A stretch of 64,000 nt of DNA from an uncultured Alphaproteobacteria bacterium (GTDB lineage: Bacteria > Pseudomonadota > Alphaproteobacteria > SP197), in contig OY282363.1 of NCBI GenBank assembly GCA_958295695.1, positions 2,918,225-2,982,224 on the forward strand. The letters are read 5' to 3'. Of the stretch, positions 25,163-29,329 are shown in pieces. Each line of letters starts with the position of its first letter. Within the stretch, counting starts at the first letter, position 1. A program made the position numbers and the translations under genes. A model generated the notes under the pieces. The model searched no databases. It was not told where the DNA came from and saw only the letters and a list, made by a program, of their open reading frames with translations.

Positions 25163-25987
25163 CTATATCTTCCGGTCGTCGGGCACCGGATTGTGTTTGC
25201 GGACCCAGAGGAAGAGGTCGCTGGCGGCCTGGTTGCCGCCGGCGACAACGAGCGTCTGGCCGGAGGTCCAGCCGGCTTCGTCGGAACAGAAGTAGACCGC
25301 GGCGCCGGCGATGTCGGCGGGCGCGCCGACCCGGTTGATGGGATAGAACGAGGCGCGGGCCCGGCGGTCCTCGTCCGTCTTGAGGTGGCGCTCCACGAGC
25401 CTGGTGTCGATGAGCGCCGGCGCGATCGCGTTGACGCGCACGTTGTGGCGGCCGTACTCCACGCCCATCGTCTCGGTCAGGCTGATCAGCGCCGCCTTGG
25501 CCGCGCCGTAGAGTCCTTCGCCCGGCGCCGCATGGACGCCGTCGATCGAGACGATGTTGAGAATCGCGCCGCCGCCGCGGCCGGCCATGTGATCGGCGGC
25601 CTCGCGGGCGCAGAAGAAGGGGACCCGCAGGTTCAGCCCGATCAGCGCGTCGAAACCCTCGACCGTCGCGTCCTCGAGGGGCCCGACGCCGCCCTTCACG
25701 CTGCTGCCGCCGCCGGCGTTGTTGACCCAGATGTCGATCCCTCCCATGGCCTCGATGGACCGGTCGACCAACGCCAGCCCGGCGTCGAGGTCGCTCATGT
25801 CCGCGGCGACGGGATGGGCCTCGCGTCCCAGCGCGCGGGCCTCGTCGGCGACGGCCTCGAGTTCCGCCGCCGTCCGGGCGGCGAGCACGACATCGGCGCC
25901 GAGTTCCGCGAAGCTCAGGGCGATCCGGCGGCCGATGCCGCGGCCGGCGCCGGTCACCACGGCCTTCTTTCCCTCATAGGAAAACAT
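25163..25987 (-). CDS. Short-chain dehydrogenase/reductase (SDR)
   Basis: A 274-residue classical SDR. The cofactor loop is TGAGRGIGRR near residue 12. The structural NNAG motif appears as WVNNAGGG. The catalytic serine lies in NIVSIDG and the YxxxK pair in YGAAKAAL. The C-terminal SGQTLVVAGGNQ is typical of FabG-like enzymes. An Ala-Ala-Arg after the second strand (VLAARTAAELEAVA) suggests NADP(H) preference, which is an inference. It is the third gene of a leftward operon after the two His-rich proteins (48 bases after the TPR gene). It probably interconverts an alcohol and a ketone made or used by that operon. Confidence 0.93.
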   Translation of the reverse strand: MFSYEGKKAVVTGAGRGIGRRIALSFAELGADVVLAARTAAELEAVADEARALGREAHPVAADMSDLDAGLALVDRSIEAMGGIDIWVNNAGGGSSVKGGVGPLEDATVEGFDALIGLNLRVPFFCAREAADHMAGRGGGAILNIVSIDGVHAAPGEGLYGAAKAALISLTETMGVEYGRHNVRVNAIAPALIDTRLVERHLKTDEDRRARASFYPINRVGAPADIAGAAVYFCSDEAGWTSGQTLVVAGGNQAASDLFLWVRKHNPVPDDRKI

Positions 25988-26035
25988 GACGAGTCCCCTT
26001 GCCGTCGGTTCGAAGTCCAGCCGGTCGTCCGCGTT

Positions 26036-27769: not shown

Positions 27770-27820
27770 GGCTTGGGGCCGTTCGCCGTTCCGGCGGCGC
27801 GCGGCCGCTCCGCCGCCGGC

Positions 27821-29329
27821 TCAGGCCGCCAGACGGCGGGCGATTTCCGGATACACCCGGCGCGGCGTCATCGGCGCCACGACCGCGGCCTGCTTCACCG
27901 CCGCCAGGGCGTGGACCCGGCGCAGCGACTCGCGGCAGGCGCGATACTCCTCATAGGCCGCCTGCTGCAGCTTGTAGGCGTGCATCTCGCTCACGTCCTC
28001 GCGGCACACCAGGCGGGCGGCGAGGTCGAACAGGTCGTCGGCCGGATGGCCCGCCTCGATGTAGGTCCAGGCGAGCCGGATCGCGGCGCGCACCCCGTCG
28101 GGCGCGACGAGATGGTTGATCGCCACGGGCAGGTCGTTCAGGTCGTAGCCGTCGATCCCCAGGATGCGCTCCTCGATCTCGTCGAGGAGGGCCCGGGCCG
28201 GAGGCGCGCCCAAGACGCCGCCGACGTTCCGCCAGGACCACGTCAGGGTGTGGTCGAGATAGCGGATTTCATAGCTCCAGGCCCAGCCGACCAGCGCCAG
28301 GACCTTCTTCCGGAAGGCGACCTCGGGGAAGCCGATCAGGTAGCGCCGGGCCGCGATGCCGGTATGGACGTGCACGTCGAACGGGTTGTTGCTGTGGGAG
28401 CGCAGGAAGAAGCGCGCGCCGCCGACCGACAGGCCCTCGCAGGCGCCTTCGAGCGAGAGGCCGCCGTGCATGGCTCGCGCCGCGATCTCGGGCAACGCCG
28501 AGATCGTCTCGACCTCGCCCACCTCGTCGGCCAGCGCGGCGACGGCCCGGTCCTCGTGCGGCCCGGTCTTCTGGGGCACCCGGTCTTCGGTGAGGTCGTA
28601 GGCGTCGACCATCGTCTCGAGTTCCGGATAGCGCCTGTAGAACTCGATGCCGTCCTGGACCGTTTCCTCGTCGAATTCGCCGAAGGCGTCGAACGAAGCG
28701 TGGCGCGACAGGTAGCGCACCACCGGACGCAACAGGACCGGACCCCACCGCCAGCCGATCGCGTCGAGTGCGCGCATGGCGTAGATCGGGTAGAGGAAGT
28801 AGTGGTCGTCGAGATTGTTGCGCCTCAGGGACACCGTCAGCAGGCTGTCGAGGATCCGGCCCGGCGTCGCCTTCTCGCAACACAGCGTCACGGCGCGCTC
28901 GGCCAGCCGCGGCTCGCGGTGATGCAGCGCCCGTTCCAGACGCGCCAGCGCCTTCCCGGCCGTCACGTCCCGCCCGAGGTCGTCGAAGGCGACCATCGCC
29001 GCCGGCCCCATCGAGGGCAGGTGGATGTGCTTGTTGGCGAGAGCGACGCTCTGCAGCGCCGGAAGCCGGCGATCCCCGCCCTCCAGCCGTTCGATCATGC
29101 CGAGCACGGCGTGGACGCCGGCGACGGGATGGATCGGTCCGCCGTGGTGGTCGGCCGGAAGCTCCGTGGAGCGCGACACGGCCAGCGCGGCCGCCGTCAC
29201 GAGGTCGCGCGGATCGTCGCCCGCCTCGAGGCGACCGACCGCCGCGTCGACGATCGACTCGCGCGGCGTGTCCTCGATCAACCGCGCGCGCGCCTCGGTG
29301 GCGGCGTCGAACTCGACGAGACGGACCAT
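27821..29329 (-). CDS. Uncharacterised histidine-rich protein
   Basis: A 502-residue, mostly helical soluble protein that I cannot assign to a family with confidence. An AGGAGG ribosome site precedes the ATG. Notable clusters are DHHGGPIHPVAGVHAV (H61, H62, H67, H73), KHIHLPSMGP (H101, H103) and later SHSNNPFDVHVHTGIAARRY. Repeated His-x-His pairs on helices suggest binding of metal (iron or similar) or a catalytic metal centre. It has no signal peptide. It is the first gene of the leftward trio with the His-rich TPR protein and the SDR, a layout consistent with an oxidative pathway whose substrate is unknown. Confidence 0.6.
   Translation of the reverse strand: MVRLVEFDAATEARARLIEDTPRESIVDAAVGRLEAGDDPRDLVTAAALAVSRSTELPADHHGGPIHPVAGVHAVLGMIERLEGGDRRLPALQSVALANKHIHLPSMGPAAMVAFDDLGRDVTAGKALARLERALHHREPRLAERAVTLCCEKATPGRILDSLLTVSLRRNNLDDHYFLYPIYAMRALDAIGWRWGPVLLRPVVRYLSRHASFDAFGEFDEETVQDGIEFYRRYPELETMVDAYDLTEDRVPQKTGPHEDRAVAALADEVGEVETISALPEIAARAMHGGLSLEGACEGLSVGGARFFLRSHSNNPFDVHVHTGIAARRYLIGFPEVAFRKKVLALVGWAWSYEIRYLDHTLTWSWRNVGGVLGAPPARALLDEIEERILGIDGYDLNDLPVAINHLVAPDGVRAAIRLAWTYIEAGHPADDLFDLAARLVCREDVSEMHAYKLQQAAYEEYRACRESLRRVHALAAVKQAAVVAPMTPRRVYPEIARRLAA

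Follow-up and report, generated by a model that had tools for sequence, protein, structure and literature searches.

The window, by which we mean the whole 64-kb stretch of DNA that was analysed, contains three neighbouring genes which we will call A, B and C. Their layout is as follows:

27821..29329, minus strand: gene A, 502 aa, probable non-heme-iron oxygenase with a predicted BTG13/questin-oxidase fold
27770..27820, minus strand: gap between A and B, which holds a GC-rich inverted repeat and no recognisable terminator
26036..27769, minus strand: gene B, 577 aa, member of a widespread family of TPR-solenoid proteins
25163..25987, minus strand: gene C, 274 aa, classical SDR

As the initial annotation had reported, all three reading frames run leftward and are very close to each other, 51 bp between A and B and 48 bp between B and C. 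Terminator prediction gives no terminator-like site in either gap. The inverted repeat between A and B was also considered as a strong hairpin, but it was rejected: its fold z-score is -0.66, no stronger than that of shuffled sequences. A Shine-Dalgarno-like AGGAGG is found before the ATG of A and AAGGGGA before the ATG of C; reading the sequence ahead of the ATG of B shows no obvious one. Co-transcription of the three genes is plausible. Their GC content by codon position is typical for the genes of the window and sets neither B nor C apart, so that a recent transfer of these two genes was rejected.

The histidine motifs quoted in the initial annotation are all found in the sequences of A and B, and in confident models many of these histidines sit at the start of a helix or along one, much as it had proposed. 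It had also described dense histidine clusters; neither protein is extremely rich in histidine, which makes up 4.0% of A (20/502) and equally 4.0% of B (23/577). As none of the three proteins goes beyond about 4%, the notable trait is the conservation of histidine and not its amount. This conservation far exceeds expectation in both: among 17 homologues of A, 9 of its 20 histidines never vary (hypergeometric p 0.003), and among 34 homologues of B the same holds for 6 of its 23 (hypergeometric p 1e-4).

Gene A has a narrow distribution. Orthologues with 41–75% identity are present throughout the window's family (16 genomes), and among the genomes examined this family is the entire order; there are none in 45 genomes from other families of the class. 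A profile search in a 398-genome sample of the phylum gave no credible relative: one extra match was discarded as an antisense-like reading frame. Scanning GTDB contigs leads to the same group, in MAGs labelled Rhodospirillaceae, uncultured Alphaproteobacteria or just bacteria, and no relatives were found on plasmids. The A branch is so far confined to one alphaproteobacterial family (16/16 genomes).

Sequence searches give little for this protein. It has no match in Pfam, a single sub-threshold match in NCBIfam and no match in the PDB by phmmer; a profile search of the PDB (hmmsearch) returns just two weak, short matches. An identity as a TAXI/TRAP protein was rejected, the weak matches spanning about 40–50 residues only. 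PF14027, the questin-oxidase family (formerly DUF4243), is not matched by A or its 16 homologues up to E 1, nor by any protein of the whole window genome up to E 10. We therefore describe A by the fold and motif plan that it shares with this family, and do not file it as a PF14027 member.

The resemblance in fold comes from the AlphaFold (AF2) model of A (pLDDT 91, pTM 0.92). Foldseek by itself finds no significant match for it. VIA-align, which does no more than re-rank the Foldseek list and in which helical models can reach a best Z near 14, places four structures at the top, all of the questin-oxidase/BTG13 family and with aligned lengths of 320–337 residues: 7y3y (BTG13; Z 16.2, 322 aligned residues, 3.8 Å), 8yxs (an AflY-type non-heme iron dioxygenase; Z 15.2) and the PaD hydroquinone dioxygenase (8z4q, Z 15.1; 8z4r, Z 15.0). 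They are followed by one local match of 94 residues with Z 10.7, and all the rest have 5.5 or less. A BTG13-like all-helical fold is thus found over most of A by VIA-align, with Foldseek E-values that are not significant.

The comparison of motifs was made through a bridge, the bacterial PF14027 proteins from other alphaproteobacteria, whose profile retrieves PaD, BTG13 and AflY from the PDB. Questin-oxidase-like genes of this kind are scattered in alphaproteobacteria: of 289 genomes, 9 carry them at E<=0.001, with 5 of these above the family cut-off (L066-L073). The putative ligand motifs of A are the following:

29129..29149, minus strand: D-H61-H62-G-G-P-x-H67-P, N-terminal; H61, H62 and H67 are invariant in 17 homologues
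28802..28804, minus strand: H176 (DDH-x9-RAL), counterpart of the histidine in AxHGIIRxGHxxRAL; the RAL spacing is the same in questin oxidases
28361..28372, minus strand: H320-x-x-T323, counterpart of the FTHxxT motif
27971..27982, minus strand: H450-x-x-K453, counterpart of DDHxxK (H374xxK377 in BTG13)

Three of these motifs come in the same order in A as in the questin oxidases: H176-x9-RAL, H320xxT and H450xxK453-L, the last being DDHxxKL in questin oxidases. The ordered pattern H-x9-[RED]A, HxxT/S, HxxK[LIMF] is present in 17/17 homologues of A, in 7/8 bacterial questin oxidases and in none of 34 homologues of B. It appears in 42 of 20,000 shuffles of A (0.2%), a value which refers to a pattern picked after seeing both families. 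A global hhalign of A with the questin oxidases fails. At sub-threshold level (overall probability 1.7%) hhalign pairs HAYK with HVIK (P 0.029), so that HxxK is the sole segment which it pairs unaided; with looser settings H320 pairs with the histidine of HxxT and the RAL motif pairs too. The BTG13 chain reads DDGH374LAK377 in its own numbering, and PaD also has a counterpart of HxxK. We take the iron ligands of BTG13 to be K377, as a carboxylated lysine, and four histidines. The N-terminal ligand is found in NHxPM in questin oxidases; in A the three histidines H61, H62 and H67 are all invariant and the alignments favour none of them. The DHHGGPxHP motif probably supplies one metal ligand.

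Gene A thus has the overall fold and the three ordered motifs in common with BTG13, questin oxidase, AflY and PaD. It differs from them by a sequence identity of 9–11%, by its length (502 vs about 440 aa), by extra invariant histidines and by the DHHGGPxHP motif. It is bacterial, and none of the neighbouring genes examined is a polyketide gene. It would be a distantly related bacterial counterpart of these fungal iron enzymes, which open aromatic rings by means of oxygen.

We consider it probable, at about 0.7, that A is a non-heme-iron oxygenase built like the fungal BTG13, AflY and PaD enzymes, as the predicted fold and the motif order suggest. The metal-dependent oxidative step proposed in the initial annotation is then likely for A; for B it is possible. 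The protein would be soluble and mostly helical, with one Fe(II) held by H176, H320, H450 and one of H61, H62 or H67; K453 would be the fifth ligand, probably carboxylated by analogy with K377 of BTG13. Such a centre could activate O2 and oxygenate, possibly with ring cleavage, an electron-rich aromatic or quinol-like substrate. Gene structure, conservation, the predicted fold and the order of the motifs are what the sequences and the model show; the identity of the metal, the carboxylated lysine, this chemistry and the transcription of the three genes as one unit are what we infer. In the relatives A stands by itself, and many of them have a divergent LysR that would control it. Only in the window genome do the TPR protein B and the SDR C follow A; C could act on the substrate or product of A, as SDRs beside fungal questin oxidases do.

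The neighbourhood of A in 15 relatives bears on how the enzyme might obtain its electrons. Upstream there is a divergent LysR gene in 8 of them, from three genera, and GreA or an RNA methyltransferase in the others. Downstream, in 11 of the 15, we find a PDR/VanB-type reductase (RED), followed by convergent SDR2 and BKACE genes. RED starts 100–165 bp after A on the same strand and is its conserved neighbour in genera g1 and g2; it combines a Fer2 with an NAD-binding domain and is similar to reductases of the GbcB type. An orthologue is present in 16/16 genomes of the family, including the window genome (79% identical). All this would suit a two-component oxygenase, in which A is the half fed by RED as a ferredoxin reductase and acts as a reductase-dependent monooxygenase, not as a self-sufficient dioxygenase. 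However, A and RED are not neighbours in the window genome: RED is found at G000:C1:2787736-2788695, 158 kb away. In genus g4 the RED locus has no A, which is found elsewhere with LysR. Reductases like RED are not exclusive to A-bearing genomes and occur very often where A is missing (757 plasmid records). Fungal BTG13-type enzymes are not known to need a PDR/VanB-type reductase for the oxygenation step. Since RED is apart from A in g4 and in the window genome, and similar reductases are common everywhere, the link of A with RED is suggestive only; a two-component system is conceivable, but we think it unlikely.

The locus of genus g4 deserves a comment: GreA, RNA methyltransferase, RED, SDR2 and BKACE are intact there in the absence of A and its LysR (L130:4597-9309, L133), which suggests that the LysR–A unit has either joined or left this locus. 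A and its LysR often move together as one unit. Carnitine or betaine breakdown was considered for the substrate of A, given the BKACE, SDR2 and GbcB-like reductase genes nearby in relatives, but A is separable from this cluster and the idea was rejected. The neighbours of RED in the window genome are a fatty-acid-desaturase-like gene and a Rieske ferredoxin (G000:C1 about 2786372-2788695; L061:6373-8696), possibly a self-contained oxygenase set; in the relatives the desaturase orthologue is on other contigs or in other places than RED.

The non-heme-iron oxygenase proposed for A should also be compared with another use of the same architecture. A could share the fold and the histidines and have a different metal-dependent activity, such as that of a hydrolase or an isomerase, or a binuclear site formed through the extra invariant histidines H101, H322 and H473. 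The nine invariant histidines, against four expected, point in this direction, as do H101 and H473, to which nothing corresponds in the alignment of questin oxidases. On the other hand every solved relative is annotated as an oxygenase or questin oxidase, and we find such an activity quite improbable.

A wider proposal is that A founds a bacterial oxygenase family, with the unusual BTG13-like iron centre of four histidines and a (carboxylated) lysine, a catabolic role under LysR and, in most relatives, a PDR/VanB-type reductase as its electron donor. Taken as a whole this is speculative, and rather unlikely. If true, it would be a reductase-dependent version of the BTG13 metal centre. Independently of this wider proposal, the four-histidine, carboxylated-lysine iron centre of BTG13 is known from only a few enzymes, all of them fungal. 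Its natural range would widen with a bacterial branch which is invisible to sequence searches. Mechanistic work would gain a soluble bacterial enzyme, and an unannotated family a testable function.

Gene C was called an SDR in the initial annotation, which is correct. It matches adh_short_C2 of Pfam (8e-55) and NF005559 (227 bits, cut-off 215), and its sequence carries the cofactor motif TGAGRGIG (TGxxxGxG) and YGAAK (YxxxK). Both motifs are common to the classical SDRs (PRK07231-type, NF005559), but C shows no diagnostic subfamily among them: among solved structures its closest relative is a generic SDR, and its nearest relatives on plasmids share about 42% identity with it. By its sequence it is an ordinary classical SDR with generic SDR relatives only.

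Gene B is a TPR protein. Pfam finds TPR_19 (4e-9) and TPR_2 (2e-7), and the best fold matches of its AF2 model (pLDDT 93) are TPR structures, so that it has both the repeats and the superhelical fold. Homologues are found in 14/16 genomes of the family and in 24/299 genomes of the phylum sample. The conserved histidines form a true cluster, as the initial annotation had noticed:

27122..27145, minus strand: H209..H213..E216 in helix 205-216, invariant in 34 homologues
27029..27052, minus strand: H240, H243 and H247 in helix 239-251, invariant in 34 homologues
26897..26908, minus strand: H288 and H291 in helix 282-299; H288 is invariant, H291 at least 90%

In the model the intervening helices 221-231 and 255-273 have none of the conserved histidines. 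Alternate helices of a TPR array line the same groove; the position of these histidines on alternate helices suggests that they converge, very likely in one groove of the predicted structure.

In other respects B is an ordinary member of a widespread bacterial TPR family with the motifs HxxxHxxE, HxxHxxxH and HDxxHxxxY. It is 45–53% identical to proteins in many alphaproteobacteria and 25–40% identical to those across the phylum sample. The family is possibly TTC38-like, given a presumed resemblance to human TTC38; a literature search for a link between B and TTC38 returned association studies only, and no function. What sets B apart from other members is that it is a lineage-specific additional paralogue which follows A. 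The other copy in the window genome (3256649-3258322) is 52% identical and adjoins a metallo-beta-lactamase-fold gene (L062:6671-9124, G000:C1 about 3256670-3259123), with hydantoinase-like genes, identified by eye, further on. The C-terminal tail of B (26036-26110 of the window) is longer than in most homologues and disordered in the AlphaFold model; several homologue matches run beyond their own stop codon in this tail.

The three genes are not found together elsewhere. Neither B nor C lies beside A in any of the 15 related genomes carrying A, in the stretches read around it; neither A nor C adjoins B in any of about 50 B loci, with flanks of 1.5 kb, fewer at contig ends; and no close relative of C adjoining A or B was found within the family. 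The B copies of the relatives stand elsewhere, away from A. The initial annotation had proposed an undescribed pathway and named conservation of the trio in other genomes as its test; the proposal fails this test, since the trio is together nowhere else among the loci examined. The A-B-C order is the arrangement of a single genome and probably not a conserved new pathway: a local arrangement, not a conserved system. Fungal questin-oxidase genes may adjoin an SDR gene, as in the nsrF/nsrO-like pair g5688/g5687 (PMC11149221), and by analogy with this precedent a partnership of A and C is possible. Yet a working three-gene pathway, with metal-dependent oxidation by A and/or B followed by the SDR, is very doubtful: the common strand, the short gaps without terminator and the fungal pairing speak for it, but the layout is limited to one genome, its B is a second copy, and the B copies of the relatives stand elsewhere.

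Two other groups of genes are found near the trio. On its left, at 21338-24990 of the window, there is a row of leftward genes for an HpaB-type flavin monooxygenase, a RidA-family protein and a DUF1028 protein, with a divergent LysR; it is a separate candidate cluster for aromatic or amine catabolism. On its right, at 32245-35018, CbiD and a tetrapyrrole methylase likely belong to a cobalamin biosynthesis cluster.
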